From: a virus
Reading direction: 5' to 3' (one strand)
Length of the DNA: 46,813 nucleotides
Virus record (IMG/VR): IMGVR_UViG_3300050132_000140
Coordinates: 1-46,813 of that record
The notes below the pieces were generated by a model. That model saw nothing but the letters and a program-made list of their open reading frames with translations. It searched no databases and was not told the origin of the DNA. The position numbers and the translations under genes are program-made. Positions within the stretch are counted from its first letter, which is position 1. Every line of letters starts with the position of its first letter. This document shows positions 8,658 through 37,804 of this stretch, in pieces.

Positions 8658-9114
8658 CTCGCCGTGCTACTCCTCGCCGGTGTCACCGTGCCGCTCGCCG
8701 TGCTCGAGTCTCGCCGTCGTCATCGCCGTGCGTCTACTCACCATCGTCAATCCTTCACCGTACTACTCGACCGTCACCACGTCACCGTCGCACTCGTCCG
8801 CTGGTCTCAATCCTTCGCCGTGCTGCACCCTTGCTACCGTTTGTCTATTCCGATAGAGCGCGACACATAGCGCCGTCATCCGCTTCACCGCGTATCGGTC
8901 GCCATTCCTGCCATGCTGGAGTACGTCCGAGACACTACCAGCGCCTCTCAAGCCAATTGTGGCCCCCGATTTGTGCCCGAATCCTTATATAAAGGTAGAA
9001 ACCCGGTCACACCCTTGTTTATGAGCTATAAGCAAGGGCTGTATCCCGTTGCATCCCGGTAGCCTCTCCCTCCCGGTACACTTGCCCGCGTCCCTCCCTT
9101 CCTCCCGCCATGCC

Positions 9115-9182
9115 TGCCTTGCCCCGCACGCGGGCCCTGCCTTGCCCCGCACGCGGGCCCTGCCTTGCCCCGCACGCGGGCC
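9115..9182 (+). repeat. 23-bp GC-rich tandem repeat, three copies, hairpin-forming
   Basis: Units at 9115-9137, 9138-9160 and 9161-9182 (the last nearly complete) are identical. Each contains CCCGCACGCGGG, an inverted repeat able to form a short GC hairpin. The three hairpins are phased at 23 bp. Confidence 0.9.
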
Positions 9183-21620: not shown

Positions 21621-21705
21621 GTCATGGCGCGTTTCGGGATGTAGGGGTATTATGGAGATGTCAGACGTTTGCGCGTCGGACAAGCCTACTCGCCTAGGAG
21701 CGAAT

Positions 21706-22440
21706 ATGACATCTCCACAGACTGATTATCGCACACTCCGCACCTCTAAATTCCAAACCTCTAATCCAGAAGTCATTTTACGATATCCCAATCGTTATGA
21801 TGTATGCCCTAATTGCGGCGGGCCAAAAGGAAAAAGGAATCGTACTTGCGCCGCGTGTTGGGAACCGCTACGGTTGAAAATCGAGCAACCATTGGACCCT
21901 GCTATAAAATATATCGCTCTAACTTGTGGGTACTTTGCTGTTATTGACGCCGAAGACTTCGCTGTTGTTAATCAGTATACTTGGTTCGCTCATATAGCAC
22001 GCCGAAAGGATGGAGAGATAATAGCAGTTTACGCGGCATGTGGAATCAAGTCAGAAGATGGCCGCTCGCACACCGTAAAACTTCATCGGTTTATTATGAA
22101 AGTGTCTGATCCTAAAATCGAAGTCGATCACTGGGACCATAATGGCCTAAATTGTCGGCGCTACAATCTTCGAGTTACAGATAGATCGGGGAATATTTTT
22201 AACCGAAGGATTAGGCGAGATAATTCGAGCGGGTTTAAGGGAGTCCGGCAACGTACAGGGTATCAACGATGGAAGGCAATGATAGGAGTCGAGAAAAGGC
22301 GTATATATCTTGGAGATTTTGCGTCAGCCATTGAAGCCGCCCGCGCTTACGATGTTGCCGCGCTACAATATCATAAGGAATTTGCTTTGACGAATGTGAT
22401 GCTGGGGCTGCTGCCCCCACTGGAGATAAATAATGGCTGA
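21706..22440 (+). CDS. HNH homing endonuclease with AP2 domain, copy 1
   Basis: 244 residues from ATG 21706, which has AGGAG 6 nt upstream; upstream in-frame codons lack a ribosome site. An N-terminal zinc ribbon (CPNCGG...TCAACW) is followed by the HNH core (KLHRFIMK, EVDHWDHNGLNCRRYNLR) and an AP2 DNA-binding domain (SGFKGVRQRTGYQRWKAMIG, YLGDFASAIEAARAYD). It is a free-standing mobile endonuclease between TerL and the next late gene. It is more AT-rich than its neighbours. Two related genes lie at 29322 and 36958. Its stop overlaps the next gene's start. Confidence 0.9.
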   Translation: MTSPQTDYRTLRTSKFQTSNPEVILRYPNRYDVCPNCGGPKGKRNRTCAACWEPLRLKIEQPLDPAIKYIALTCGYFAVIDAEDFAVVNQYTWFAHIARRKDGEIIAVYAACGIKSEDGRSHTVKLHRFIMKVSDPKIEVDHWDHNGLNCRRYNLRVTDRSGNIFNRRIRRDNSSGFKGVRQRTGYQRWKAMIGVEKRRIYLGDFASAIEAARAYDVAALQYHKEFALTNVMLGLLPPLEINNG

Positions 22441-22945: not shown

Positions 22946-24739
22946 GTGACTATACTTGGCGAGCGGCCCGAGCTTCAATTAGAGCAAGAGGTTATTGAGT
23001 GGACTGAAAGTGTCTATTCTGAAGCAGAACAAGAGTTGTTCGACTCGCCTGATACGAAACTTGTGACCAAGTTAATCGACTTTATTGAAGGTCGCCAGTG
23101 GTCAAACAAGGCTCGCTTCGGTCGCTCCCGCCCGGTTTCCAACAAACTCTTCAAGCAGTTCATCGAAACGGTAGGACTCCTCACCGACATCCAGCCGGAT
23201 TTCGCTGTCACGTTCAACGACAAACTGGGCGGGTACTCAGAACTCGAAAAACTCCTCAATCGCATGATTGGGGATTGGGCTCTCTCGTCTGAGTTCGAGA
23301 TGGAACTCACGCAGACTGTCATCTACGGTCTGATTCATACCGGGTTCGCGAAGGTGCAATGGAACGGCGCTCTCTGCAACGGGATCGGTGACAATGAGTA
23401 CGAAACGTACTCTCCTGTAAACTTGATGCAGATTGGCGCGGTTCGTCATCTCCAGGATGCCGAGTGCGTGATCGGTCGCAAAGCGGTAACACTTCCGTAT
23501 CTCGTTCGACGGTACGGCAAGGTAGCTGAGCAGGTGCGTCCAGACTTCCGTATGAATGATATTGGCGGGGAGATGCAGCGGCCCGGTCGCATTGGAAAAG
23601 GGCAATGGGCATCACTCTCTCCGGTACTGAAGAAGTTACTTGGCGAAGAGTCCGCTCCTGTGCGTTCGAAGTATCCGCGCACGATGCTCAAAGAATTCTG
23701 GATGAAGGATGACGCCGTTTGGAACGGGCGCGAGAGCATCATCGTTGGCGATGAACTCTGTAACTGGTCCTATCGCGTAGAGCCTGGAATGAAGCTATAT
23801 CCGCGTGGCCGGGTAGTCATCACCGCAGGCGGCAAGGTGCTGGAAGACAATCCAAATCCATACTGGCATGGAAAGTTCCCATTCGCGCAGTATCGCCCAT
23901 ATCGAGTGCCGTGGAAGTTCGCGGGACTTTCCATTTTGGAGCCCCAGGCCGCGATGCAGAACATCATCAACCGGATTTCTGGCGGGATCATGGACATGAT
24001 TAAGTCTGCCATTGATCCAACACTGGTAGCGCAGAAGGGTGCGCTCTCGCAGAGCGATTGGGACTCGATTGATCCGGGTGCCCCAGGCGGCAAGATCGGC
24101 CACAATAATAACTTCCAGCCTCCAAAGTTCCAGAATACGAAAGACCTCCCTGCTTACGTGATGCAGATGAAAAACGATATTGAGCGCGACATGAGCGAAA
24201 CCTCTGGCGCGGCGGCAATGTCGCAGTTGATGCAGAAGAAGCAGGTTCCGAGCGGTGACTCGCTGGACACGATTATGAACAGCCGGTCAACTCCGATTCG
24301 GCTCGCCGGTCGTTCGCTCGCGTCGTTTATGATCGAGGTAGGAAGTATGGTCACAGCAAACACGCTTCAGTTCTCCAACTCCGATCATCGCATTGCAAAA
24401 TACGGCGCAGAGGGAATCACCTCGCACGACTGCACTCCGATCTACGGAAACTTCATTCGTACAGGGATGGAGCCGGAAGAGTTCGTCAAACAAGCGAACT
24501 TTGGGATTAGCAAAGGAACCCTGCTTGCGCTGGATGGTCAAGAGGATATCCAAGTCGCATTCGCATTGCGAAAGGTTCACGATATCTCTCGTCGCGGCCT
24601 ATTCCGTATCATCGGTCGCCACAAGCATACCAACTTCGACATTGATCAGAATGACGCTGAGTTGCTTGAGGAAGCGTTGGTGCAGGCAAAGATTGGCGCG
24701 GCGGTTGGGGGCGGCGCAAAACCTCACGGGAAGAAATAA
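22946..24739 (+). CDS. portal protein
   Basis: 597 residues, GTG start. Features: acidic N-terminal helix, FIEGRQWSNKARFGRSRPVSNKLF-like entry, DIQPDFAVTF, conserved NLMQIGAVRHLQDAEC, wing-region PYRVPWKFAGLSILEPQAAM, and the stem/clip region QNIINRISGGIMDMIKSA. This composition and the position after TerL and before scaffold and capsid genes fit the portal of short-tailed phages. It forms the dodecameric ring through which DNA passes. Residues 384-395 (IGHNNNFQPPKF) recur exactly in the 58-residue protein at 36748. No strong ribosome site is seen before GTG. Confidence 0.85.
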   Translation: MTILGERPELQLEQEVIEWTESVYSEAEQELFDSPDTKLVTKLIDFIEGRQWSNKARFGRSRPVSNKLFKQFIETVGLLTDIQPDFAVTFNDKLGGYSELEKLLNRMIGDWALSSEFEMELTQTVIYGLIHTGFAKVQWNGALCNGIGDNEYETYSPVNLMQIGAVRHLQDAECVIGRKAVTLPYLVRRYGKVAEQVRPDFRMNDIGGEMQRPGRIGKGQWASLSPVLKKLLGEESAPVRSKYPRTMLKEFWMKDDAVWNGRESIIVGDELCNWSYRVEPGMKLYPRGRVVITAGGKVLEDNPNPYWHGKFPFAQYRPYRVPWKFAGLSILEPQAAMQNIINRISGGIMDMIKSAIDPTLVAQKGALSQSDWDSIDPGAPGGKIGHNNNFQPPKFQNTKDLPAYVMQMKNDIERDMSETSGAAAMSQLMQKKQVPSGDSLDTIMNSRSTPIRLAGRSLASFMIEVGSMVTANTLQFSNSDHRIAKYGAEGITSHDCTPIYGNFIRTGMEPEEFVKQANFGISKGTLLALDGQEDIQVAFALRKVHDISRRGLFRIIGRHKHTNFDIDQNDAELLEEALVQAKIGAAVGGGAKPHGKK

Positions 24740-24755
24740 AACATGCTTTGGGTAC

Positions 24756-24783
24756 TTGACCTTTTGTAACAACGGTTCAGAAT
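24756..24783 (+). promoter_or_regulatory. putative promoter for the capsid gene block
   Basis: TTGACC (24756-24761), 16 nt, CAGAAT (24778-24783), 80 bp before the small basic peptide gene. The ACTTGAC context resembles the leftward promoter candidates. It could boost capsid-gene expression. Confidence 0.4.
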
Positions 24784-24862
24784 AGAAATCGAGGGTAGTT
24801 ATTTTAACCCTGACCGGAGTGCAGGCTCCGTTAACAAACCGTGATCCGCGAGGAGAAAAGAT

Positions 24863-24946
24863 ATGGCCCGCAAAATGGGAAAGAAACACGTTGGCAAGCG
24901 TCATGGCAAGCGTGCCGCGAAGCGCGTTGCAAAGCGCGTGAAGTAG
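24863..24946 (+). CDS. 27-residue protamine-like basic peptide
   Basis: Read by hand: ATG 24863 to TAG 24944-24946, preceded by AGGAGAAAA 2 nt upstream. The peptide starts MARKMGKKHVGKRHGKRAAK and consists almost only of K, R, H, A, G and V; about half its residues are basic. It sits between portal and scaffold/capsid genes, flanked by a promoter candidate and a strong hairpin. A role in neutralising DNA or RNA or as a capsid-internal peptide is possible. It is too short for any family call. Confidence 0.6.
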   Translation: MARKMGKKHVGKRHGKRAAKRVAKRVK

Positions 24947-24965
24947 TCAGGAACCCAACCATTAA

Positions 24966-24991
24966 CGATGGGGAGCTTAGGCTCCCCATCG
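24966..24991 (+). other. strong hairpin, 11-bp stem, TTAG loop
   Basis: CGATGGGGAGC and GCTCCCCATCG are perfect arms around TTAG. It lies 19 bp after the basic-peptide stop and 22 bp before the next GTG. No T tract follows, so an intrinsic terminator is incomplete; RNase processing or mRNA stabilisation is plausible. Confidence 0.7.
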
Positions 24992-25013
24992 CAACATCCG
25001 AGGAGCAATTCCC

Positions 25014-25202
25014 GTGACCAAGATTAACAAGAGCATTACCTCGAATACGTTTGGCGAAGACGTTGTGCAGCCGACGATCAAACTCAACAAAGGGACGATG
25101 ACTGTTGTCGGGGCGATGGTGAACGACAGGCCGATTCCCGAGCGTGGTTTCAGCGTTAACGTGAAGACCGGTCATCCAGTGACCCCTTCGGACAAAAGGT
25201 AG
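25014..25202 (+). CDS. small late protein, unknown
   Basis: 62 residues with GTG start and AGGAG 8-9 nt upstream. It is beta-rich: NTFGEDVVQPTIKLNKGTMT, VVGAMVNDRPIPERGFSVNV. No charged cluster or metal motif. Located in the head-gene block, perhaps a minor head protein. Confidence 0.6.
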   Translation: MTKINKSITSNTFGEDVVQPTIKLNKGTMTVVGAMVNDRPIPERGFSVNVKTGHPVTPSDKR

Positions 25203-25205
25203 CCA

Positions 25206-25565
25206 ATGCCGCCGACCTCTGCGCCTCCGAGCTTCTATAGCAACATCGCCGCGATGGGTCAAGGTGGTGCGCCGTCAATGGGCAAAAAGCCTGGACCGGA
25301 TGGCAAAAATGACGACGCGGAACTGATGCAGGCGTTCTCCGGGATTTTCAAAGTCTTCGAAAAAATCAAGAAACTCAAGCCGGAAGCTGGTCCAAAACTT
25401 CAGCCCGCCTACGATGCGATTAAATCAGTCATCGTGGATGTGTTAAAGAAAGACCCGAAGGAAGTCGAGCCCGCGCCTGAAACATCTGCGCCGCCCACGC
25501 CTCCTGCCGGTAATGAACCTCCGCCTCCGCCTGCTGATGGTGGGGACGAATCGCACACGGCTTAG
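25206..25565 (+). CDS. head-block protein with Pro-rich C-terminus
   Basis: 119 residues. The N-terminus is flexible (MPPTSAPPSFYSNIAAMGQG). A helical core is at ~40-85 (AELMQAFSGIFKVFEKIKKL, YDAIKSVIVDVLKKDPKEVE). The last 30 residues are rich in Pro. The Pro-rich tail could act as an assembly linker. It lies immediately before the scaffold-like gene, suggesting an assembly role. Confidence 0.6.
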   Translation: MPPTSAPPSFYSNIAAMGQGGAPSMGKKPGPDGKNDDAELMQAFSGIFKVFEKIKKLKPEAGPKLQPAYDAIKSVIVDVLKKDPKEVEPAPETSAPPTPPAGNEPPPPPADGGDESHTA

Positions 25566-25584
25566 GCCGGGAAGGTAAAGACAG

Positions 25585-26298
25585 ATGGCGTTACTGGACG
25601 ATTTGGAAGGTATCCTTGGGAAAGACGCAATCGACAAGATTAAGGCCGATCCGCGTGTGAGTCAGCGAGCGATCAAGGCAGATGAATTGTTAGGGTACTA
25701 TGACGGCGATGAGCCGACCGCGCCGCCAGCCAAAGTTGAACCGAAGGTGGAGCCGGTAAAAGTTACCAGTCTAGGCATGGACATGGCAGCATTGCTGGCC
25801 GGGATCGACAAGTCTCTGGATGCGAAGTTGGGCACCATCGGGAAAACGATTGACGACAAGATTGATGCAGCGGTTAAGACTCGCGGAGCCGAACTTGCAG
25901 GGAACGCTTCCAGTATCGCCCTGCGGAACGCTGATGAATTGAACCGTGTGTATCGCCGTCACGAAAAAGATTTTGGCGAGGATTTCGACTCGACCGCGTT
26001 CAATACCTTCGTAGAGACTCAGAAGAAGGCGGGGCGAGGTTTCAACTCCGTCACTGAAGCCTACGAAGCGATGACCGCCGACAAGCGCACTGACAAGACA
26101 GTTGAGGAGCGCGTCCGAGAGCAGTTGAAGACGCGAAGTTCCGCGCAGAATGTTCCAGGTGTTACCCCTCCGTCTGTCAAGAGCCCGCTGGGAGTTTTCA
26201 TGGCTCGCGGCAAGGCGGAAGGTGGAGCGGATACAGCAGTAAGCAAGGCGGCTGCGATGCTGGCAGCGCGGCGAGCTTCGCACGCCAACGCCGAATAG
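25585..26298 (+). CDS. capsid scaffold-like protein
   Basis: 237 residues, highly charged and mostly helical, with a Pro/Lys/Glu linker at ~48-60, long amphipathic helices (IDKSLDAKLGTIGKTIDDKI, RNADELNRVYRRHEKDFGED) and a basic Ala-rich C-terminus (AAAMLAARRASHANAE). Basic C-terminal ends of scaffolds bind the capsid protein. The position directly upstream of the major capsid gene supports the call. No protease motif is visible. Confidence 0.7.
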   Translation: MALLDDLEGILGKDAIDKIKADPRVSQRAIKADELLGYYDGDEPTAPPAKVEPKVEPVKVTSLGMDMAALLAGIDKSLDAKLGTIGKTIDDKIDAAVKTRGAELAGNASSIALRNADELNRVYRRHEKDFGEDFDSTAFNTFVETQKKAGRGFNSVTEAYEAMTADKRTDKTVEERVREQLKTRSSAQNVPGVTPPSVKSPLGVFMARGKAEGGADTAVSKAAAMLAARRASHANAE

Positions 26299-26369
26299 GA
26301 AGTAACCCGTAAGGCAAGGTACGGTACGGAAAGGCAAGTTTGATTCGGCCTCGTGCCACAGGAGATTTT

Positions 26370-27338
26370 ATGCCTCTGCCTTATGGAGATATTAGTGCAG
26401 TCACCGTCGCAGAAATCGTGCCGAACATCGTTGACAATTATTACAAGGTGTCTCCGACATTCGCATTGATCTTCAAGGGTGACACGGTGCGGCCCTTCCC
26501 TGGAGGCACGCAGATTCAGCAGCCTATCCAGTATGCGCCGTTAAAGGCTGGTCCGTTCGCTGCTGGTTCGACGTTCGATATCAGCTACGTGAACACCGAT
26601 ACGGCCATGACGTTTTTGGTGAAGTTCTACTACGCAAACGTGACCATCCAGGGCACGCAATTGCCAATCAATCGCGGCGATAACGCGGTGATGAGCTTCA
26701 TCGAAGAGAAGATGGTGAATGGCTCTCAGGCACTTGCTGCGGCACTTGCAGCCGACCTCTACGGAGACGGCCAGGGAACGGTAACGTCCCAGATCGCGCT
26801 CGACGGCCTGCTTGCCGCCTACGATGATGGCACGAACTATCCGTCTTACGGCGGACTGTCGCGTGCGGCTATCGGTTCCGGCGCGAACACCGGCATCAAC
26901 GGGTACTACCTGAACGTGGCTGGCCCGATATCGATCCCAACGCTTCAGAAGGCGTATGGACAAGCAACCTTCGGGAATCGTCAACCGAACCTGATTGCGA
27001 CCACGCAGGTTGTCTACAATTCGCTGTATAACAAAATGGTTCCCGCGCAGCGCGTGATGGATACCACCAGCGACTTGTTCTCCATCGGATTCCAGGCGCT
27101 TCGCTTTAACAATCAGCGATTGGTTGTCGATCACTATTGTCCTGCCGGATATATCTTCGGCATGAACACCGACTTCCTGAACGCGCACATCTCCGAGCAG
27201 GAATTGTTTGGCTTCGGCTTCACCGGCTTCAAGGAACTTCCGAACTCGGTTGACGCGGCTGGACAGCTTTGTTTCGGCGGAAACATCGTGACGAGCGCAC
27301 CGCGCTTGGGCTTCATCTGTGCAGGCGTAACCGCCTAG
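26370..27338 (+). CDS. major capsid protein
   Basis: 322 residues from ATG 26370 (MPLPYGDISAVTVAEIVPNI). AGGAG lies 4-6 nt upstream, better than the longer start at 26340. Its pattern fits HK97-fold capsid proteins of podovirus type: N-arm helix VTVAEIVPNIVDNYYKVSPT, E-loop-like strands, P-domain helix EEKMVNGSQALAAALAADLY, and later FNNQRLVVDHYCPAGYIFGM and TDFLNAHISEQELFGFGFTG. The location after scaffold and the strong hairpin just downstream support high-level expression. Confidence 0.88.
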   Translation: MPLPYGDISAVTVAEIVPNIVDNYYKVSPTFALIFKGDTVRPFPGGTQIQQPIQYAPLKAGPFAAGSTFDISYVNTDTAMTFLVKFYYANVTIQGTQLPINRGDNAVMSFIEEKMVNGSQALAAALAADLYGDGQGTVTSQIALDGLLAAYDDGTNYPSYGGLSRAAIGSGANTGINGYYLNVAGPISIPTLQKAYGQATFGNRQPNLIATTQVVYNSLYNKMVPAQRVMDTTSDLFSIGFQALRFNNQRLVVDHYCPAGYIFGMNTDFLNAHISEQELFGFGFTGFKELPNSVDAAGQLCFGGNIVTSAPRLGFICAGVTA

Positions 27339-27345
27339 AGGGATT

Positions 27346-27372
27346 TCAGGGGTGGATAACCTCCACCCCTGA
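27346..27372 (+). terminator. 10-bp hairpin after the capsid gene
   Basis: TCAGGGGTGG and CCACCCCTGA pair perfectly around a 7-nt loop, 7 bp after the capsid stop. No T tract, so it may protect the 3' end or only partly terminate. Hairpins at this place are common in phages. Confidence 0.5.
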
Positions 27373-27410
27373 GTACAAAAGTTACCGCCCAATCGGGCAG
27401 GGAGAAGAAT

Positions 27411-28013
27411 ATGGCGCTACTTGATTATCCAGTTTTCTCGGGAACCAATGCATACAACAGCATTGATACCTACGTTTCGACGCTCCCGAATGGCGGCGGT
27501 CTTGTACAGCCCGGTATCGCGGCCAAGATGCCGATTACCCCAGCTCTGGCGAACGTCAAGGGGCAGGGCGCTCCGCTGGTTCTGCGTTATATCCGGTTCA
27601 ACTCGACCGCGAATCCCGCCATTGGCGCGGCTCCCGGCCCGGTGTACTGGACGGATGCCACGTTTACCACAGTGAGTGGCGTCTCGACGGAGAGCGTCGG
27701 CGGTGTGAATATGATCGCCGGTTGCTTGCTCATCAATACCACGAATTATCCGGGATCACTGACCGGCGCAGCCCTGGCGACCGCACTGAATGGTAACTAC
27801 TGCTGGATCGCGGTGGCTGGATATGTTGCTGGCGTGACAAGCCCTGCCTCGATTGTGGCCGGTGATACCCTGATTGGCGCGGCGACCAACTTTACTTTGG
27901 CTCGCATTGCGGCTGGCTCGCAGCTCACCAACACTATGTTTGCCCGTGCATTGTCAACGGTTTCCGCCAACATTGCCGATATGTTGATCGGTGGATTCGA
28001 CTGGGAGTTCTAA
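27411..28013 (+). CDS. structural protein after capsid, possible decoration
   Basis: 200 residues, low charge, Ala/Gly/Thr-rich, beta-strand-like (GAPLVLRYIRFNSTANPAIG, GNYCWIAVAGYVAGVTSPAS). GGGAGAAGA is just upstream of the ATG. The location right after the major capsid protein and the composition suggest a decoration or head-associated protein. No family recognised. Confidence 0.6.
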   Translation: MALLDYPVFSGTNAYNSIDTYVSTLPNGGGLVQPGIAAKMPITPALANVKGQGAPLVLRYIRFNSTANPAIGAAPGPVYWTDATFTTVSGVSTESVGGVNMIAGCLLINTTNYPGSLTGAALATALNGNYCWIAVAGYVAGVTSPASIVAGDTLIGAATNFTLARIAAGSQLTNTMFARALSTVSANIADMLIGGFDWEF

Positions 28014-28016
28014 GCC

Positions 28017-29189
28017 ATGTCTCTGACTATCACAGAAGTTGCTGACAGCGCAATGGTTCTTGGCCCGTCGAATAACGTTCGGACGTACCAGCTTACGCCG
28101 GGTGTGTCCGATTACGTGACTGGCGGATACCCGATTACTGCCGCGCAACTTGGGATGACGCGCCTCTACGGAGCGCACATCATCGCCAAGAATTCGTCTG
28201 GACTGCCGTATGGCACGGGGATCGCGTTTCCTTCTTCGTCTTTTGGGACGACCCCGACTCCTGCGACTTCGATCAATTTGTCTATCACGCAGCAAGGTGG
28301 CGGTGGCGTTGGATTGCCACTCACGACTGGCGCGGTTGCGACTGCGACTTTGAGCGCATTGACGACCAACGTCGCTACTGTGACCGCCGCAAACACGTTC
28401 CTTCCGGGGCAGTTCGTTGCCCTTCAGGGAGCGGCCAACGCGGGATTTGCTGACTTGAACGGTCTGATCGTCCAGGTCATCACGGCCTCTGCGACTGGAT
28501 TCACGTTCAACTACACTCACGCTAACGTGGCCTCGGGCGCAGACGTTGCGCTTACCGCGACCCAGATTACGGCTGCGACCGGCCCGTTGAATTCCGGCAC
28601 CGCCATTGCATCTACGAACTCAGCGCTGACGACGAATGTCGCCACGATCACGATTGCGAACACGTTCCAACCGGGGCAGTTCGTCGTCCTTCAGGGCTTC
28701 ACAAACCTTTTGGCGACGGCCTTCAATGGCTACATCGTGGAGGTTATCACCGCCACGGCGACGGGATTTACCTTCAACTTCAACCATGCGAACATCGCCA
28801 GCGCCGCCGATACTGGCACTGCTGCTTTGGTTGTAGCTCCTGGCAACGCTCCGATTACAGTTGGAAGGCCGTCTTCGATCTCGAACACGGCTCTCACGTC
28901 CAACGTCGTTTCTCTGACTTCGAACCAGCAGTTGTTTGCTGGACAAGTAGTGATCGTCCAGGGATTGACGGCAGGCGCAGCACTGAATGGGCAACTCTTG
29001 CAAGTCATCTCGACCGGGCTCACAAACGCTCTGTTCGAGGCGAACATCAAGAACGCGAATATCGGCACTGCCGCTGATATCGGCGTAGCACTCCCGCTCG
29101 TCGCTGGACCTTCGACGGCTATGAGTGAAGTGCCAGCCGGAACCAACTTGAGCGGCCTGAATCTGTTCTTGGAAGTTCGCGGGTACTAA
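28017..29189 (+). CDS. structural protein with three 89-residue repeats
   Basis: 390 residues. After an N-terminal domain (residues 1-110) come three repeats starting at 114, 203 and 292, exactly 89 residues apart. Each holds ALTTNVATVT or a variant, then PGQFVxLQG, NGxIVEVITA, TGFTFNxxHANIAS and AADxG. The repeats are beta-rich, Ig-like modules of a fibre or capsid decoration. The start overlaps nothing but follows the previous stop by 3 nt. The third repeat is the most diverged. Confidence 0.7.
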   Translation: MSLTITEVADSAMVLGPSNNVRTYQLTPGVSDYVTGGYPITAAQLGMTRLYGAHIIAKNSSGLPYGTGIAFPSSSFGTTPTPATSINLSITQQGGGGVGLPLTTGAVATATLSALTTNVATVTAANTFLPGQFVALQGAANAGFADLNGLIVQVITASATGFTFNYTHANVASGADVALTATQITAATGPLNSGTAIASTNSALTTNVATITIANTFQPGQFVVLQGFTNLLATAFNGYIVEVITATATGFTFNFNHANIASAADTGTAALVVAPGNAPITVGRPSSISNTALTSNVVSLTSNQQLFAGQVVIVQGLTAGAALNGQLLQVISTGLTNALFEANIKNANIGTAADIGVALPLVAGPSTAMSEVPAGTNLSGLNLFLEVRGY

Positions 29190-29213
29190 CGGCTAAGACC
29201 GTGAAGTGATATT

Positions 29214-29240
29214 TGGGGTCAAGCTAACCGCTTGGCCCTA
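29214..29240 (+). terminator. intrinsic terminator with T-rich tail
   Basis: TGGGGTCAAGC and GCTTGGCCCTA form an 11-bp stem including two G-U pairs around TAACC, followed by TTGTTCTTT. Of all hairpins in the window this is the only one with a proper T-rich run. It ends the structural gene at 29189 and separates it from the HNH insertion. Confidence 0.65.
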
Positions 29241-29260
29241 TTGTTCTTTAGAGGTACAAT
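29232..29260 (+). promoter_or_regulatory. putative promoter of HNH gene 2
   Basis: TTGGCC (29232-29237), 17 nt, TACAAT (29255-29260), about 60 bp before ATG 29322. The -35 lies inside the terminator stem. It suggests the mobile gene brings its own promoter. Confidence 0.45.
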
Positions 29261-29321
29261 GAAAGGGAAGCCGAGGCAGCAACCCCGGCTTATATGACAT
29301 AACCTCTTCGGGAGAGAGATC

Positions 29322-29990
29322 ATGGCAACCCCTAAAAAAGTATACGATACGTATGCGTATTATCACAATGAATGTCCGCAGTGTGGAGGCAGTAAAAATA
29401 AGTATGCCAAAACGTGTAGAACGTGCAAAGAGGCTAGGCCGATCATTGTACAACCCGACGATCAAACTATCCGTTTCATCGCGCTAACACAAGGGCAGAA
29501 AACGGTCGTTTTGGTAGAACATTATAAATGGCTCGCGCAATGGAAATGGTCGGCATTGTGGAACCCAGATATCCAAGGATATTATGCGGTACGAAATCTA
29601 CCAAGAATTGACGGTAAGCGGAGTGGGTTTGCCTTGATGCATCGGGTAATACTTGGATTAGAATCTGGGGATGTGCGCCAAGGAGATCATATAAACCATG
29701 ATACCCTCGATAACCGACTGGGGTTTAATTTAAGAATTGCGACTCCTTCGCAAAATTCACAAAACCAGAGGCTTAGGAGTGACAATATCTCTGGGGTAGC
29801 TGGTGTTAGTTGGGATGCAAATAGAAGAAAATGGCACGTATCTATTACCGTAGATAAAAGAGTAATTCACTTGGGGCGGTTTGATTCTTTTGAACTAGCT
29901 GTGCAAGTAAGAAGGGAAGCCGTTATTCAGCATCATGGGAATTTTGCATGTGAGGGTAAACAGTGCCAATCATTCCAAATAGCGCAATAG
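29322..29990 (+). CDS. HNH homing endonuclease with AP2 domain, copy 2
   Basis: 222 residues, GAGAGA upstream of ATG. Zinc ribbon (CPQCGGSKNKYAKTCRTC), then HNH core (LMHRVILGLE, QGDHINHDTLDNRLGFNLR, NSQNQRLR) and an AP2 domain (ISGVAGVSWDANRRKWHVSI, HLGRFDSFELAVQVRREAV). Same domain order as copies 1 and 3. It has its own promoter candidate and terminator upstream. It overlaps the next gene by 28 bp, and the first ~20 codons of that gene are AT-rich like the HNH gene. The element may therefore have supplied the new 5' end. Confidence 0.9.
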   Translation: MATPKKVYDTYAYYHNECPQCGGSKNKYAKTCRTCKEARPIIVQPDDQTIRFIALTQGQKTVVLVEHYKWLAQWKWSALWNPDIQGYYAVRNLPRIDGKRSGFALMHRVILGLESGDVRQGDHINHDTLDNRLGFNLRIATPSQNSQNQRLRSDNISGVAGVSWDANRRKWHVSITVDKRVIHLGRFDSFELAVQVRREAVIQHHGNFACEGKQCQSFQIAQ

Positions 29991-30961
29991 TAAATGAGGT
30001 TTTACCAATCCAGAATGGACAAACTCCATTCGTGCAACAGATGAACTTCGGCGCGATGATTGGGTCTGTTTTGGCCTGGAACCCTGATGCTACCGCAATG
30101 GCTCCTGTGTTTTTGAATGATGCGCTACGGAAGGTGCTCGACCGGCGCACGTGGTATGGTTTGTTCACAAAAGCTCAAGTCTGTGTCCCCGCAGCCGTAG
30201 TCGGCGGAACCGCGACCGTGACCAACGGCAGCAACCTTGTGAGAGGGGTCGGAACCGCTTGGACAAATTCGGCGGTCGGAATGCAATTTCGGCAAGGGTA
30301 CAATGCTCCCATCTACACGATCACGGCGGTTGATACTGTGAATCAAGTCCTCACACTGGAGATGCCGTGGGGTGGTCCTAGCCTCAGTGCGGGCTATTAT
30401 ATCGTCAAATACTACTATTCCTTTCCGAATGTGAAGTACATCAAGACGATGGTGAACACCATCATGGGGTTCAAGTTTCGGCTGAATCTTACTCAGGATT
30501 TCTTGAACGCGAAAGACCCGTGGCGAGCGATGGGTGGAAACTTCTCATGGGGAATTGCCCCTATGCCTACCGACCCCTATGGAAACTACGTTTTCGAATT
30601 GTACCCAGCCTCATGGACGGTACAGGCGTTCCCTGTTTTGATGTACACACAGCCAAGCAATCTTGTGAAGGACACCGATACACTTCCGCCTTATATTCGA
30701 TGCGATGTTCTTATCAAGGAAGCAATTTCTCAGGTGCTCGTATGGCGCGGAGCAAAGAATAACCAGTTCTATGATGCCGGTGAGTCGCAACGGAAGCACG
30801 CGGAGTTCGAAGCGGAACTTAATCACATGGCGCAAGCTGATGAAAATCTCTATAGAACTGATACAATTTACAAGGATGACGGCCTCCCGTATTACGAACC
30901 TGGGGGCGGATTTTGGGATGCTACGCACGCTGTCATGGCGGGCGATGACGGAGGCTGGTAA
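29963..30961 (+). CDS. head-tail adaptor-like structural protein
   Basis: 332 residues, GTG start with GAGGG about 7 nt upstream, inside the HNH gene. A beta domain at ~78-145 (TATVTNGSNLVRGVGTAWTN, PIYTITAVDTVNQVLTLEMP) is a module seen in phage adaptor and tail-accessory proteins. The C-terminal half (WTVQAFPVLMYTQP, PPYIRCDVLIKEAISQVLVW, RGAKNNQFYDAGESQRKHAE) resembles connector helices. Likely part of the head-tail interface; the exact ring is uncertain. Confidence 0.6.
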   Translation: MPIIPNSAIVNEVLPIQNGQTPFVQQMNFGAMIGSVLAWNPDATAMAPVFLNDALRKVLDRRTWYGLFTKAQVCVPAAVVGGTATVTNGSNLVRGVGTAWTNSAVGMQFRQGYNAPIYTITAVDTVNQVLTLEMPWGGPSLSAGYYIVKYYYSFPNVKYIKTMVNTIMGFKFRLNLTQDFLNAKDPWRAMGGNFSWGIAPMPTDPYGNYVFELYPASWTVQAFPVLMYTQPSNLVKDTDTLPPYIRCDVLIKEAISQVLVWRGAKNNQFYDAGESQRKHAEFEAELNHMAQADENLYRTDTIYKDDGLPYYEPGGGFWDATHAVMAGDDGGW

Positions 30962-31315
30962 GTGGCTCAGAAATGCGAACGATGTGGCGATACCGTATAT
31001 CGGGTGAAACTTCAAACCAATGGCGAATGGGTTGGCGAAGATTGTGGGTGCCTTCGAACGAAGGTCATCGCGGACACGAACAATCCATTTAGTGAGATGG
31101 TTATTGAGCACGTTCACGACGAATACGGCAAGCCAATCCGGGTCACATCTCTTCGCCAGTTAAACGCCGCCGAACATCGCTACGGTTTTGCCAGCGTGGT
31201 AGCAAACATGGATGCTGCGAACGTCGATACACCGCCACAGCAGAGACGCATGGAAGTGGCTGACATGTACAAGTGGAAATTCAATCGGAGAGAAGCTGAT
31301 GCCCATAAAAGGTAG
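30962..31315 (+). CDS. small zinc-binding late protein
   Basis: 117 residues, GTG start immediately after the previous stop. The N-terminus MAQKCERCGDTVYRVKLQTN with a following CGC makes a zinc-knuckle pair. The rest contains VIEHVHDEYGKPIRVTSLRQ and a basic C-terminus. Function unknown; probably virion assembly given its place. It overlaps the next gene by 17 bp. Confidence 0.6.
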   Translation: MAQKCERCGDTVYRVKLQTNGEWVGEDCGCLRTKVIADTNNPFSEMVIEHVHDEYGKPIRVTSLRQLNAAEHRYGFASVVANMDAANVDTPPQQRRMEVADMYKWKFNRREADAHKR

Positions 31316-31637
31316 AAGTAAGGGAAGCGACCCGTCTGATCGTGTTCTCGGGCAGAATCAACGCTTGGTTAATGGTGGAGTGGTTTCGATCCCAGTCAAC
31401 TCGCATTGCTCGACCGGGAACTTCTATGTGGACCGTGCTCGTGTCTCTCAGGTGGATAAAACCGATTGGACCGGAGAGACCTATCGCGAGTATCAGGAGC
31501 CCGCGTCGATCATGGACAATGCGCGACAGAGTATGGGCGAGATGTCGGCCTGCTCCAGTTTCCAGGATCGCACGCATAAAGCGCGGCGGGCGCGGGATGA
31601 GCGGAAGAAACGACTTATGAATCGAGGAGACGAGTAA
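31299..31637 (+). CDS. small late protein, unknown
   Basis: 112 residues from ATG 31299 with GGAGAGAA 4-5 nt upstream, overlapping the previous gene. The N-terminus is basic (MPIKGRSKGSDPSDRVLGQN). The middle (STGNFYVDRARVSQVDKTDW) and a very charged C-terminus (DRTHKARRARDERKKRL) follow. Unknown. Confidence 0.6.
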   Translation: MPIKGRSKGSDPSDRVLGQNQRLVNGGVVSIPVNSHCSTGNFYVDRARVSQVDKTDWTGETYREYQEPASIMDNARQSMGEMSACSSFQDRTHKARRARDERKKRLMNRGDE

Positions 31638-31639
31638 TC

Positions 31640-32254
31640 ATGGCATTCCGCACGTTCGGCTCGACATTCAAGGTGGCATCCACAACTGTTCCTCAGCCGT
31701 TGGCTGGATCATGGGTAACAGCAGGGTTGGATGGCCCTGCCAAGAACCCAATTACGCTCACGCTCGGCACGGCTACGTCATCGGGTAACGATGCAGCCAA
31801 CATCTTTCGCCCTGGCGATCAGGCGTGGTTAATCAATGCAGATGGCACCAATCCTGAGCCCGTGCTGATCTCTTCGGTCCTAAACAACACTTTGATCCTC
31901 GGACAGCAAAATGTGGGCGCAGTAGTTGGCGGGATCAATCCCGTGACAATCTATCAGCACGCTTCCGGGGGAATCGGAACCGGCACATTCATCTTGCTGC
32001 AAATGAACTTCAATAACATGTATGTCACGTTGGAAGATGGCGCGACTGGACAGTGGTTGTATCTTGGCAACGCCTGGAATATGACGGCCACTTCCCATCG
32101 TATCTCGAAGCTCGCCAAAGTCGCGGCGAACGTGATGCCATATTTCTACAGCGCGTCGGAATCCTCGCCCGCGAATCCGTTCTCTTCAAGCGAACTTTGG
32201 ACGTTGGGGACGACGGTCGCTGATACCTATAACGTCAGTTTGTGCGTGGTCTAA
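31640..32254 (+). CDS. beta-rich structural protein
   Basis: 204 residues (MAFRTFGSTFKVASTTVPQP). Strand-rich and low in charge, with an OB- or Ig-like feel (PITLTLGTATSSGNDAANIF, GDQAWLINADGTNPEPVLIS). It ends with a segment (HRISKLAKVAANVMPYFYSA) that looks amphipathic. Located between adaptor and fibre-like genes; probably a virion protein. Confidence 0.6.
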   Translation: MAFRTFGSTFKVASTTVPQPLAGSWVTAGLDGPAKNPITLTLGTATSSGNDAANIFRPGDQAWLINADGTNPEPVLISSVLNNTLILGQQNVGAVVGGINPVTIYQHASGGIGTGTFILLQMNFNNMYVTLEDGATGQWLYLGNAWNMTATSHRISKLAKVAANVMPYFYSASESSPANPFSSSELWTLGTTVADTYNVSLCVV

Positions 32255-32264
32255 GGTGGAGCCG

Positions 32265-33047
32265 ATGAGACTTCTACGATTGTTGCTATGTGTCTTGCTG
32301 ATGTCAACGTTGGCTCTAGCGCAAGGACAAGGGACAGGTGGTGGGCCAAGCGGCGGAAGCGGTGGCGGCACTACCACGAACGCTCTAACCTTCAACAACG
32401 GAGGCTCCGGTGCAGCATCCGGGGCCACGTTTGACGGGTCAGTAGCGCAGACGGTGAGCACTAACACGATTGGGGCGCTACCCGCAAATGGCGCGACCAG
32501 TACGGGATCAGGAGCGTCCAATGTGGTGATGTTTCCGGGAACCCTCTCGGCAGGCACGTCGGTAACTGCACCATCAGTCGTTTCGACAGCCACAACTGGC
32601 ACGCCGCCGTTTACGGTTTCCAGTACAACGGTCGTTCCGAATCTCCACGTTGCGAGCTCAGACGCGCTCTCCGCCACGTCAGGATTACCCGCAGCGGCGA
32701 AGGTACGCTCCGTGTCTGCCGCAATTGGTGAGACTGGCACGGCGGCGACTGCGCTGACCGCAGGGACGCAGATTATCCACACGGCTCGCAACTCTACGGG
32801 CGCAATGTTGACGCTCACGGCAGTGTACTGCTTGCAGGATGCGGGAGCTTCGACGGTGGCGGTTGCCGATAGCTCTGGCAATCAACTTCTGAGCGCGACT
32901 ACACAGACCCCAGCGGCGGGAACGACGTTCACCGCGCTCACACTCAACGGAACTCCGACATTGGCATCCGGCGCTTCTCTTATCTGGACCTTCACGGCAG
33001 ACGGCACGAGCAAGGAAGTGAGTTACCAAGCGGATTGGACACTGTGA
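32265..33047 (+). CDS. signal-peptide-bearing fibre-like protein
   Basis: 260 residues from ATG 32265 (GGTGGAG upstream). A classic Sec signal (MRLLRLLLCVLLMSTLALA, cleavage after residue 19) is followed by a Gly/Ser-rich linker and a phage-fibre-like segment TNALTFNNGGSGAASGATFD. The remainder is a beta-rich domain (LTLTAVYCLQDAGASTVAVA, ASLIWTFTADGTSKEVSYQA). Combined with the next gene by a TGATG overlap. A fibre protein with an export signal is unusual; a secreted or periplasmic role should be considered. Confidence 0.65.
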   Translation: MRLLRLLLCVLLMSTLALAQGQGTGGGPSGGSGGGTTTNALTFNNGGSGAASGATFDGSVAQTVSTNTIGALPANGATSTGSGASNVVMFPGTLSAGTSVTAPSVVSTATTGTPPFTVSSTTVVPNLHVASSDALSATSGLPAAAKVRSVSAAIGETGTAATALTAGTQIIHTARNSTGAMLTLTAVYCLQDAGASTVAVADSSGNQLLSATTQTPAAGTTFTALTLNGTPTLASGASLIWTFTADGTSKEVSYQADWTL

Positions 33048-35710
33048 TGAGACGACTACTTGCAACCTTCGCTCTGCTGCTATGCTCCTCGCTGGCGTGG
33101 GCCACGGTTCGCACCTCGAACACTTCTACCACCGGAAATCTTAGTGACGGAACCAAATGGGTGGGCGGCGTGGCTCCAAGTTGCGCAGGAACAGATGCAA
33201 TTGTGGTCGCATCTGGCGCGACGATCACGATTGACTCAGGGGCGGCATTGGCTGGCACGCTGACGCTCACGCAGGTTGCGGTCGGCACCTACAGCGGCGG
33301 CATCCTTCCGGTGACGTACTCATATTCGAGCTATTCTGGCGTGATTCCTGTTCCGGGAACGGCGTTGACGTTCTCAGGCTTTGCCAATGCAGGTAACAAC
33401 GTAGTCGCTCCTCTGGTGACGATCTCAGGCGGGGCAAGTGGAACGCTGACGATCAACTACCCGACGAACTACTCCGACTTCGGCATCTGGCCGGTGAATG
33501 AAACACATGCCGGGAGCGCGGCTGGATCGTACTGCGCTCTTGGGGCCAGCACTCCGGCAACTACGAGCTACGTGACAGCGGTAGCCAACCCAAGCGGAAC
33601 TTCATTCAGTGGCGCTTGCACGGTTGCATTTAGCGGGGGCGGCGGTGGTATAGGAGCAACAGCCACATGCTCCATCTCAGGTGGCTCAATCTCGACTACG
33701 CTCACCTATGGCGGCAACTGGTACACCTCGGCACCAACGGCTACTTACACATGCACTGGCTGCTCAAGCACCACGTCGCCATCAGTCACAATGAGCGCGA
33801 CCGGGACAGCGGCGGCGATGGTAACAGGCGTCCTGAAAACCGCGACAGGTGTGACGTTCGTTGCTCGCGGCGACGTGACGAATAACCTCGCCTCCGGTTC
33901 GGGGGCAAGCTGGTTTGTGCTGAATGTTGGATCAGCTTTCGCCTTCGATTCCAGCAATGCTGCCTCTCCCACCACAACGCGGTACAGTATGCAGAATTCG
34001 GCGAGTAATGCTCAATATAGAGCGTTCGATTCGACTGCCTGTACGGCGTCTCCCTTTTGCGTGGTCACGTCTGTGATGAACAACGGAGCCTTAGCGGGAG
34101 TCACGACAGCTTATGGAGCACCAGCGGGTTTTGCTTCTGGAAACGCTTTTAAAGCGACATATACAGCCTTCTCTTTTATCGGAGACGCGCTTGTGCCATT
34201 TTCAACGATAGGAGATAACGACGTTGTCCCCTGGATTGCGACCTACAGCACCTTCGACAACTGTGGTGTGGCGGGATTTGCAAATGGAGGGAATCTCGGG
34301 ACAAATGAAGTTGTACAACATAACCATAACGTCCACACCAATTCGCTCGGATCATCCCCATTCTGGTTGACCTCACCGACTGCACTTGGTACAGGAGCAC
34401 GAGAAGTCCTCGGCAACGTGTTCGACAAAGCTCCGGCTGGGACTGCGTCGGTCGCTGCATGGAAAGGTGTGACTATTTCAGGTAACTACCTAAATCGAGG
34501 GATTTCGCTGACACCCGCAGTGGTTGCTGGGTTTAGCAATAATCTCTGGCGCATGGGAAACGTGAGTACGGATACCGGCAACCTTTCAAACAGCATCTCG
34601 TCCAGCTATATCTATCTCGATACGGACACGACGAGCAATCCGCATTACTTCGCAAATTCAACTGGCACCGGAAATTTTGTGCTCAATAAGATCATCGTCG
34701 GAACGAGTGGAACGGCATCGGGGGATTCGGGAGAATGGCTGGTCGGCCCTATTGCTAACGGGTCATCCTATAGCATTACCAACTCAGTGCAGATGTGCGA
34801 CCCGTCTGGAGTGGGGTCTAGCGAACTCATCTCCACCGAAGGCACGACGACCGGGACGTGGACGCTGACGCACAACACCATTTGTGGAGGTTACGGGGCG
34901 GCTGGCGCGGTCCAATTAATGGAGTCTGGCCTTACCGCAGCCGGAATTGTGACTTTTCAGGACAACCTCGTTTTCAATCTGTCTCCCGCTGCATGGTTCA
35001 AGCTGGAGTGTACAGGGTCGTCCTGCACAAACGGGACCATGACAGCGGATGTGTGCGCTTCCTCGGCAGCGTGCGATTATAACGGCTCCTTTAACCTCAC
35101 GCCTAAAACACAAGCGTCCTGTACAAGCTGCACAAATCAGGCAAAGTCATACGCCGCAAAATGGACCGCACAGACACCGGGAGCGCATGACGTTGACGAC
35201 CAGAGTCCAGCGTTCCTCGCCTCTGGCTGGGCAAGTAACCACTTTCAGAAGGTGGAGAACTTTGACCGCCTCTACCTTGGCCCCAAAAGCCTAATTTCGT
35301 CGGGGCAAGCCTCGCCGTCAGCATGGGCATCTGGAACCTACTCGTTGAACGCTTTTGTGAGTCACTCCTATTCCACGATGTACAACAGCGAGACATTCAA
35401 CTTCCGCTGCATTGTGGCAAGTTGCACGCTAGAGCCGGGAGTACCGGGCACATCCTGGCGCTCACAGTGGGAGTGGGCGTCACTCTATCAGTTGCGCATC
35501 CTCACGGCAGCACAGACCTTAATTACCGATGCGACTATCGGCTGCGGATCGGGCTGCTCCGCAATTCAGGCACTTAATGCTTGGACGCTGGCGGGATTGG
35601 CACCGACCAACGCTTTGTTCAAGGGTAAAGCACACGATGGTAGCGACATCGGCGCGGTGCCCGTGGTGCTGCTGAGTAGCCCGAGGCAGCGTGCAGGGTG
35701 GAGTTGGTAA
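33047..35710 (+). CDS. signal-peptide-bearing beta-helix protein
   Basis: 887 residues from ATG 33047, overlapping the preceding stop (TGATG). Signal peptide MRRLLATFALLLCSSLAWA, cleavage after residue 19. The N-terminal region (WVGGVAPSCAGTDAIVVASG, ATITIDSGAALAGTLTLTQ) is a beta-helix entry. The middle contains many short strand-turn repeats with asparagine (STFDNCGVAGFANGGNLGTN, NNLWRMGNVSTD). The C-terminus has cysteines (CGSGCSAIQALNAWTLAGLA). Right-handed beta-helix tailspikes and polysaccharide lyases look like this. No catalytic site can be named. Confidence 0.65.
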   Translation: MRRLLATFALLLCSSLAWATVRTSNTSTTGNLSDGTKWVGGVAPSCAGTDAIVVASGATITIDSGAALAGTLTLTQVAVGTYSGGILPVTYSYSSYSGVIPVPGTALTFSGFANAGNNVVAPLVTISGGASGTLTINYPTNYSDFGIWPVNETHAGSAAGSYCALGASTPATTSYVTAVANPSGTSFSGACTVAFSGGGGGIGATATCSISGGSISTTLTYGGNWYTSAPTATYTCTGCSSTTSPSVTMSATGTAAAMVTGVLKTATGVTFVARGDVTNNLASGSGASWFVLNVGSAFAFDSSNAASPTTTRYSMQNSASNAQYRAFDSTACTASPFCVVTSVMNNGALAGVTTAYGAPAGFASGNAFKATYTAFSFIGDALVPFSTIGDNDVVPWIATYSTFDNCGVAGFANGGNLGTNEVVQHNHNVHTNSLGSSPFWLTSPTALGTGAREVLGNVFDKAPAGTASVAAWKGVTISGNYLNRGISLTPAVVAGFSNNLWRMGNVSTDTGNLSNSISSSYIYLDTDTTSNPHYFANSTGTGNFVLNKIIVGTSGTASGDSGEWLVGPIANGSSYSITNSVQMCDPSGVGSSELISTEGTTTGTWTLTHNTICGGYGAAGAVQLMESGLTAAGIVTFQDNLVFNLSPAAWFKLECTGSSCTNGTMTADVCASSAACDYNGSFNLTPKTQASCTSCTNQAKSYAAKWTAQTPGAHDVDDQSPAFLASGWASNHFQKVENFDRLYLGPKSLISSGQASPSAWASGTYSLNAFVSHSYSTMYNSETFNFRCIVASCTLEPGVPGTSWRSQWEWASLYQLRILTAAQTLITDATIGCGSGCSAIQALNAWTLAGLAPTNALFKGKAHDGSDIGAVPVVLLSSPRQRAGWSW

Positions 35711-35779
35711 CGTTGATAGATGCACGACAGTAGCAGCTTTGCGTGTTTTCAGACGTTTTAGATTCCAAGGTGAGAAATA

Positions 35780-36475
35780 ATGCCAGCAATTGCAAGTTTA
35801 ATCCCGACCGTCCTTGACCACGTTGAGGAAACTAATCCTCCCATCTGGGTCACAATGATGGAGGTCCAGGCGGCTATCGCAGAAGCAATCAACGATGCGA
35901 TGCTAATGGTGGGACGCCCTACGCAGATTGTCGATCAGCCGTACAAGATCACTCCAAATCTTACGTGGCAACCGATGCCTGCCGGGATGATCGCTATCAC
36001 AGACATTCAGGGACCGTCATCGAAGCTCTGGAAGTACACGCTGCGGGATATGGACTACACGCAAACCTATTGGGACTCAGCCTGGGAAAAAGATGTTGCC
36101 GATGTCAGCAAGGGGCAATTCCCTCGCGTATGGTTCCCGATAGGCTTTACCCTCTTCGGAATTTATCCACAAGCAAGTTTACCGATCACGGTGACTCTGA
36201 CTGGCATTGCAGTTCCCGTGAGCGGCGCGTGGCCTTATACTGGGAATGAACCAATTCCGTTTCACGATGAATTCTTTAATGCTATCGAAGAGTATGCCGC
36301 GCATTACTTGCGGTTCAAAGAAGGCGGGAACGAGTTCTCTGAAAGTTTCAAACTGCTGAAGTCCTACATCGCGTCGATGAAGAAGATGACAGAGATCGAA
36401 GATCGGCGCGATGGATACCTTTTTGGGACTGGCTTCGGAGTCAAAACCGGAGTCAATCCACCAACTTTCAGATAG
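35780..36475 (+). CDS. head-tail adaptor-like protein
   Basis: 231 residues (GGTGAG upstream). Helical N-terminus (PPIWVTMMEVQAAIAEAIND, MLMVGRPTQI). Mid-strands are followed by helices EFFNAIEEYAAHYLRFKEGG and KLLKSYIASMKKMTEIEDRR. The same helix-strand-helix plan is common in podovirus adaptor and gatekeeper proteins. Probably part of the tail-ring stack together with 29963 and 37805. Confidence 0.6.
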   Translation: MPAIASLIPTVLDHVEETNPPIWVTMMEVQAAIAEAINDAMLMVGRPTQIVDQPYKITPNLTWQPMPAGMIAITDIQGPSSKLWKYTLRDMDYTQTYWDSAWEKDVADVSKGQFPRVWFPIGFTLFGIYPQASLPITVTLTGIAVPVSGAWPYTGNEPIPFHDEFFNAIEEYAAHYLRFKEGGNEFSESFKLLKSYIASMKKMTEIEDRRDGYLFGTGFGVKTGVNPPTFR

Positions 36476-36484
36476 GAGCGAGTA

Positions 36485-36748
36485 ATGACACTTGACGAAT
36501 TACGTGGAGAAGTTCGACCGTGTACTTGTGACCCGCAAGGGGATTTGGCCTGTACGATGTGCCGTGGCAGGAACTTCGTAGCCCAGTGTCTTGGTTGTAA
36601 CGGCAAGGGGCAGACGGAAGAGAAGATGGCCGGGGGACCAGGGCAGATGCTTTCCACTTGCAACATCTGCGGCGGGACTGGCACGCTGCCCGCGACGAAG
36701 GCGCAGTACGAAGCTCAAGAAGCGAAGAAAGAAGAGGTGAAAGCGTAA
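36485..36748 (+). CDS. DnaJ-type zinc-finger-like protein
   Basis: 87 residues. Motifs CTMCRGRN, CLGCNGKGQ and CNICGGTGT follow the CxxCxGxG pattern of the DnaJ cysteine-rich domain, here without a J-domain. It could be a chaperone-like assembly factor or simply a zinc-binding connector. The stop overlaps the following ATG (TAATG). Confidence 0.7.
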   Translation: MTLDELRGEVRPCTCDPQGDLACTMCRGRNFVAQCLGCNGKGQTEEKMAGGPGQMLSTCNICGGTGTLPATKAQYEAQEAKKEEVKA

Positions 36749-36924
36749 TGAAAAGACCACTGATTGTGATGACTCACCAAAAAGGAACCTTATCTCTGAA
36801 TGAGGTTGAAGAGATCAAGAAAGAATTAAACAATTTCGGCATCGATTGCCTCGCTATCGGCCACAACAACAACTTCCAGCCGCCGAAGTTCAGTGAGTTC
36901 TATCAGCCCGATAACGAGTCGTAG
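36748..36924 (+). CDS. 58-residue protein containing a portal-identical peptide
   Basis: ATG 36748 (TAATG overlap). Strand RPLIVMTHQKG, helix SLNEVEEIKKELNNFGIDCL, then residues 37-48 IGHNNNFQPPKF and an acidic end. The 12-residue peptide is identical to portal residues 384-395, and the four nucleotide differences between the two copies are all synonymous. The first part is like short phage proteins with a beta-alpha-beta pattern. Possibly it competes with or mimics the portal segment. Confidence 0.65.
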   Translation: MKRPLIVMTHQKGTLSLNEVEEIKKELNNFGIDCLAIGHNNNFQPPKFSEFYQPDNES

Positions 36925-36969
36925 ATGGCAAACCCCGGTGTTGGACAGAGAGCCGATTCAGGGCCTTGA
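36925..36969 (+). pseudogene. remnant start of the adaptor gene split by HNH 3
   Basis: ATG 36925 follows the preceding TAG directly and encodes MANPGVGQRADSGP before a stop. The functional gene starts at 37805 with MANPGIGLRTALDV. The two 5' ends share MANPGxGxR, with different codons at most positions. I interpret this as the original 5' end, orphaned when the HNH element entered with a diverged copy of the gene's start. Confidence 0.6.
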
Positions 36970-37728
36970 GATCACACCAAAAACCTTCGTCAACTTATCT
37001 ATCAACATTGTCGGCAGTGAGTTTGGAGTTTCTAGCGGGAAGTTGAATGTTCCAAACTCACTACCCCACAACCACAGCACTGCGGAATCTCTTATCTTTG
37101 CTGCTTCAATTAGATCAGAGTATCGGCCCAAGGATGCGCGTTTGTGATTATCCCGAATGCTAGCTTCATATTTACCGCTTTTTACGCGATGAACTCCGAT
37201 GAATCCAGTTATTGAATCCTTCCTTAGTCGTTGATTATGTGCGTTCTGCTTAGGGGTACAGATACGAAGGTTGCTTTTTCGGTTATCGAGTCCGTTTTTA
37301 TTAATATGATCGACATCGAGCGATGGATCGGTAACATCGAGGATCATCCGTGCCATATGAATTGTCTGTCGGATGCCATTTATTTTTCCCTTAGTTTGTG
37401 CGTATTTTGTGCGAGTTAATGGGTCAAGCAAATTCCATGCCCATTGAGAGAGAAACTCATACTCTTCAGCATCAACTAAGGTATACTCCCAACCAGATAG
37501 AGGAATTCTTCTACAGCGCTCGCCTTGAACTATATAAAAACACTCGTCAATCGGGGGCCTACCGTTAGCTATCTGGCATCCACGACATTGATTGGCTTGT
37601 CTTCCCTTTAAGCCGCCACACTGCGGACAAGTATTTAAATTACATCTCTGTTTTGTTGTATATGATTCAGGTGTCGAAAATCTTAAGGGTGGGGTATACT
37701 GAGAATGGTGTAATTGGGTGCTGTTCAT
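36958..37728 (-). CDS. HNH homing endonuclease with AP2 domain, copy 3 (reverse)
   Basis: 256 residues on the minus strand from ATG 37728, with AGGAG and AGGG upstream. The domain order is a zinc ribbon (CPQCGGLKGRQANQCRGC), HNH core (HMARMILDVTDPSLDVDHIN, NGLDNRKSNLRICTPKQN) and AP2 (GFIGVHRVKSGKYEASIRDN, SLGRYSDLIEAAKIRDSAV). It is the only gene on this strand in the late region. AT-rich relative to neighbours. It lies across the start of the adaptor gene: an orphan start lies beyond its 3' end and a second start beyond its 5' end. Confidence 0.9.
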   Translation of the reverse strand: MNSTQLHHSQYTPPLRFSTPESYTTKQRCNLNTCPQCGGLKGRQANQCRGCQIANGRPPIDECFYIVQGERCRRIPLSGWEYTLVDAEEYEFLSQWAWNLLDPLTRTKYAQTKGKINGIRQTIHMARMILDVTDPSLDVDHINKNGLDNRKSNLRICTPKQNAHNQRLRKDSITGFIGVHRVKSGKYEASIRDNHKRASLGRYSDLIEAAKIRDSAVLWLWGSEFGTFNFPLETPNSLPTMLIDKLTKVFGVISRP

Positions 37729-37804
37729 GATTTCCCTACTCCTAATAGGGTATGTGCTGCCTGATTGCACCATATTATTATCTCATAAGGGTGCAGACGA
37801 AGCA

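Follow-up and report, generated by a model that had tools for sequence, protein, structure and literature searches.

Why does a phage encode the same twelve-residue peptide in its portal protein and again in a protein of only 58 amino acids (aa)? We analyzed IMG/VR virus record IMGVR_UViG_3300050132_000140 over its 46,813 nucleotides (nt), the whole of which we call the window. The peptide IGHNNNFQPPKF (12 aa) is common to residues 384-395 of the portal (24095-24130) and residues 37-48 of the 58-aa protein (36856-36891), both on the plus strand; a sequence-only reading of this DNA had given these two locations, and the coordinates of the two coding sequences showed that they are exact. Our results suggest that the 58-aa protein likely mimics the portal at the protein level. 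The function that we favor, held tentatively and at rather less than even confidence, is that the flexible tail of this accessory protein shows an imitation of the portal clip and would thereby compete for a protein that binds the clip, with the head-to-tail adaptor as the likeliest such protein.

The two 36-nt copies were identical at 32 of 36 nt. The four differences (AAT/AAC, AAT/AAC, CCT/CCG and CCA/CCG) are all at third codon positions and synonymous; their number and synonymous nature had been reported from the letters alone. The flanks of the two copies were without similarity, and the identity was bounded abruptly at codon boundaries. A degenerate pattern of the peptide was found at two places in the window, the portal and the small protein only, and a shortened form of this pattern was absent from all IMG/VR contigs. 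The antisense frame of the two copies likewise has 12 residues in common, but this adds no information, since wobble positions fall at the same sites in both frames. We then compared the pair with the background in 44 related loci (10-22 kb), where the longest exact peptide common to the portal and another open reading frame (ORF) was 5-6 aa, so that chance is excluded for a 12-aa identity in the window pair.

Next, we asked whether the identity reflects copying of DNA or selection on the peptide. Two independent encodings of the peptide with the codon usage of this phage agree at 29.5 ± 1.7 of 36 nt, and the probability of 32 or more is 0.11. Because codon usage alone yields a similar identity, 32 of 36 nt does not by itself point to copying, and recent DNA copying as the sole cause was rejected as unnecessary. 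Recent recombination, in the sense of the earlier suggestion that the peptide may have been copied and then kept, is thus not needed to account for the identity of the DNA. The two copies differed at 4 of 6.3 synonymous sites and showed no replacement; with a fixed portal peptide and a small copy drifting neutrally, four synonymous changes without a replacement would have a probability of 0.008. These data, a sample of only four changes, favor a peptide that is conserved in the small protein rather than an inert copy of recent origin. The sequence-only reading had held that the peptide appears to be under selection in both proteins; its being kept at the protein level agrees with our results, whereas the fact that all the differences are synonymous is, by itself, no more than moderate evidence for selection on the small copy.

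It is also conceivable, if improbable, that one of the two genes received its copy of the segment from the other, in either direction, and that this copy is now without a role. The restriction of the match to 36 nt with abrupt ends is what such an event could leave, and the adjoining insertion of an HNH endonuclease gene, described below, shows recombination at this spot. The pattern of substitution and a DNA identity no higher than codon usage predicts speak against an inert copy, as does a homologue from another phage to which we return below.

The clip of the portal protein

The portal gene (22946-24739, plus strand, GTG start) encodes 597 aa. It matched PHROG portal families (E 2.7e-14) and the Pfam family SU10_portal (E 7.8e-14, above the cut-off). 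A sequence search of solved structures found no portal for it; therefore, a comparison of folds was needed. We built an AlphaFold2 (AF2) model with 19 relatives (mean predicted local distance difference test score, 74), and the Foldseek matches of this model were the solved portals of N4, SU10, Pan3 and P22. The profile matches together with a stem-clip-stem order of the fold place the protein among SU10/P22-type portals.

In the model, predicted stem helices at residues 331-356 and 403-418 enclose the shared peptide. This order of stem, clip and stem is known from T7 (PMC6702177) and from YonE, and because the peptide lies between the two stem helices, we placed it in the clip, whose predicted extent is residues 357-402 (24014-24151, plus strand). 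The modeling for which the sequence-only reading had called thus puts the segment in the predicted clip. The clip is where other proteins dock: the adaptor of SU10 attaches there (PMC9509320), that of T7 binds there while the clip strands themselves form contacts between subunits (PMC6702177), and the large terminase of HK97 docks at the same domain (PMC10359639). The peptide in the window portal is a piece of the domain that forms the clip in short-tailed phage portals (SU10 gp6, T7 gp8 and P22 gp1), with a conserved motif, whereas in the 58-aa protein the motif is attached to an unrelated beta-alpha-beta body and is not surrounded by a portal fold. Adaptors and large terminases are natural clip binders, hence the likely targets of a mimic; the small protein, in contrast, looks like the clip itself and not like its binders.

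We examined the same segment in related portals. In each of the 55 portals from loci L003-L057 the segment is 13 residues long, typically [ILM]xYNNNxP+xPEF, within a consensus close to GGK[IL]xYNNNxP+xPEF, and in comparison with these 55 relatives the 12-residue IGHNNNFQPPKF was found in the window portal only. The departures common to the window portal and the small protein are His for Tyr, one residue fewer, F-Q, and K. Because the window alone has IGHNNNFQPPKF, its portal and small protein depart from the family motif in the same ways. Residues unique to the window occupied 10 of the 19 scored positions at portal residues 384-402, compared with 14.6% of all scored portal positions. Portal relatives were also found in contigs L157 and L158, which are binned as Acidobacteriota; this hints at a possible host, though only as a guess.

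Probable homologues of the small protein

The small gene (36748-36924, plus strand) has a start codon that overlaps the preceding stop (TAATG) and a ribosome-binding-site-like AGAGGTG upstream. Its product had no Pfam or PHROG family at E values up to 10 and no convincing match among 50,697 phage records. The AF2 model of the protein showed a strand (residues 5-12), a helix (17-29) and a second strand (33-39), followed by a flexible tail of low confidence. The peptide starts in the last residues of strand 2 and continues into this tail, in keeping with the behavior of short linear motifs.

We searched for homologues in the 26 records holding related portals. One probable, diverged homologue was found in phage G018, the record of locus L040 (E 2.2e-4 in the G018 genome; 29% identical across residues 5-52), and a profile made from the window and G018 proteins detected a third, in phage G017. 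The tail of the G018 homologue reads VLYGNNAVRPPDF, at the same place as the peptide of the window protein, and the portal of G018 itself has MMYNNNTPREPSF. The G018 tail agrees with its own portal at 6 of 12 residues and with the portal of L004 at 7 of 12, so that its motif is portal-like without being a copy of its own portal, which argues against the inert copy considered above. Besides G018, searches of IMG/VR and the phage records gave no close match to the small protein or its peptide. A DNA pattern for YxNNxx[RQ..]PPDF gave three matches in IMG/VR, of which two were in unrelated proteins and the third was G018, and among 297 Acidobacteriota genomes one matched, at the threshold (E 0.0095) and inside a frame of 392 aa.

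Next, we scanned 1.66 million positions of non-portal ORFs in the related contigs with a profile built from 19 distinct portal motifs, none of them from the window. The tail of the G018 protein was the top match, at 21.5 bits, and the next scored 14.3. The scan was less clean when one gap was allowed: an ORF of G017 (L101:15679-16008) with IQYVNKTPTPKF near its start reached 21.4 bits, which could be chance or another mimic, compared with 20.5 bits for the window small protein against the motif of the other portals. Since this ORF outscores the window small protein, we did not use a gapped score alone as evidence. A chance resemblance or a generic convergence of an Asn/Pro-rich loop would fit the composition of the peptide and the similar score of this gapped ORF. 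We consider this explanation very improbable, because the length of the identity already refutes it for the pair in the window, and the G018 tail is an independent top match without a gap.

The N-terminal parts of the three proteins were also compared alone. By shuffling, P was 1e-4 for window and G018, below 5e-5 for G018 and G017, and 0.08 for window and G017. The proposed imitation of the portal clip is present in the tails of the window and G018 proteins and not in that of G017, so that two members bearing the motif are known, and the small gene sits at a different place in each of the three phages.

Possible roles of the proposed clip mimic

The sequence-only reading had proposed that the tiny protein may occupy the site of a portal partner. 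This fits our results, because the peptide is kept, lies in the clip and has a portal-like counterpart in the G018 homologue. The small protein is not an essential portal partner: its gene is missing from most relatives and is therefore not required for assembly. We suggest that the tail of the small protein would dock where the clip normally docks and so compete with the portal. The most likely putative partner is the head-to-tail adaptor, which is the first candidate because of the gene neighborhood, and the large terminase, encoded at 19476-21620, is the second. The small protein might hold free adaptor subunits until a filled portal, with its twelve clips, outcompetes it.

The adaptor gene (35780-36475, plus strand) lies two genes upstream in the same gene run, the small gene being next but one to it. 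Its product matched the Pfam family SU10_adaptor (PF24175, E 3.1e-7) with 31.5 bits against a cut-off of 27, which assigns it to the SU10 type. In an alignment with 13 related adaptors, the adaptor of the window alone contains an additional run of residues, approximately DVSKGQFPRV. Together with the changes in the clip, it looks as if the interface had been rebuilt in the window.

Several observations weigh against a clip mimic that competes for the adaptor. The extra run and the clip changes are a coincidence in one lineage and not a test. The tail of the G017 homologue, IPYGSGSSTPRIE, is without the portal motif, and the N-terminal homology between the window and G018 proteins is weak, having the top phmmer rank with an E value of 6.4, which is not significant in the database. 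Both the family and the mimicry would thus rest on few members. The absence of the gene from most relatives counts here as well, and in G018 the small gene is about 24 kb from the adaptor gene, which weakens a role specific to the adaptor.

The main rival to competition for a clip partner is a decoy against bacterial defense. SpbK recognizes the portal YonE by its clip, and the contacts of EcAvs4 include stem, clip and wing. A monomeric mimic of the clip could occupy such a sensor without activating it as the portal ring does. Phage counter-defense against SpbK exists in the form of Nip, a protein of phi3T (PMC11984713), and the small gene is accessory-like, being present in few relatives, placed differently in three phages and, in the window, adjacent to an HNH gene. 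If the small protein is a decoy, it would resemble Nip as another phage accessory protein acting around the portal clip; it differs from Nip, which has 279 aa, binds the TIR effector domain of SpbK and has no reported portal mimicry (PMC11984713). The modeled contact of SpbK is a helix of the clip and not the segment of the shared peptide, and the window gene lies within the late structural run. On balance, we regard a decoy as unlikely.

A structural role in the neck would place the small protein in the virion, bound to portal or adaptor and completing the clip interface. The position of its gene between the adaptor and neck genes and the contacts of clip strands between subunits in T7 (PMC6702177) agree with such a role, which is nevertheless quite improbable given that the protein is absent from most relatives, although these have the same genes for portal, adaptor and neck. 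We doubt slightly more strongly that the mimic is a weapon or guard against co-infecting relatives with a common adaptor or terminase surface, whose packaging or tail joining it would block. The accessory and mobile distribution and a motif directed at a conserved assembly surface are in keeping with a weapon, but the mimic of the window is identical to its own portal, so relatives with the 13-residue segment should be hit no harder in their assembly than the phage itself.

A broader proposal, to which we give an even chance, is that these proteins form a mobile family of tiny mimics of the portal tip, tuned to their own portal and either timing neck assembly or blinding sensors of the clip. 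At the portal clip the packaging motor and the tail exchange places, and bacterial immune sensors recognize this clip as well. An imitation made by the phage would, if confirmed, be a natural peptide probe, perhaps an inhibitor, of the exchange between motor and tail; alternatively, it would be counter-defense through mimicry of the phage's own portal. No earlier description of such a clip mimic was found in the open-licence literature that we searched.

Neighboring genes and other repeats

Between the adaptor and small genes is a gene for a small CxxC zinc-finger-like protein of 87 aa (36485-36748, plus strand; assigned from its sequence, with a weak DnaJ_CXXCXGXG match below the cut-off). 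Its stop overlaps the start of the small gene, and it follows the adaptor gene in most relatives. Downstream, a neck or head structural protein is encoded at 37805-38680 on the plus strand, as suggested by gene order and a match to PHROG 399 (structural protein, E 7.6e-5). In L070, L074, L083 and others, the zinc-finger and neck genes are immediate neighbors and the small gene is missing from between them, so that it is an insertion in the window.

The small gene is flanked on its other side by a gene for an HNH homing-type endonuclease (36958-37773, minus strand; PHROG 99 HNH, E 4.1e-32; Pfam HNH_3). A duplicated and truncated start of the neck gene (MANPGVGQRA..., 36925-36954, plus strand) precedes it, and the intact start is at 37805, so that MANPGVGQR and MANPGIGLR flank the minus-strand HNH gene. 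The HNH insertion downstream of the small gene has left behind this duplicated start. The translations of two further ORFs, 21580-22440 and 29322-29990, resemble the HNH insertion gene, and both are inserted between late genes.

Repeats elsewhere in the window were also noted. At the left end (1-378), a 27-bp tandem repeat encodes units of the PVFVAAELS type in nine overlapping register copies. Two short tandem repeats are exact, one of 23 bp at 9113-9182 and one of 11 bp at 44878-44919. A near-palindrome, AGTCCATGCATGGACAG, is dispersed at 1057-1083, 7872-7898 and 46782-46808, and its copies are possible operator or control sites.
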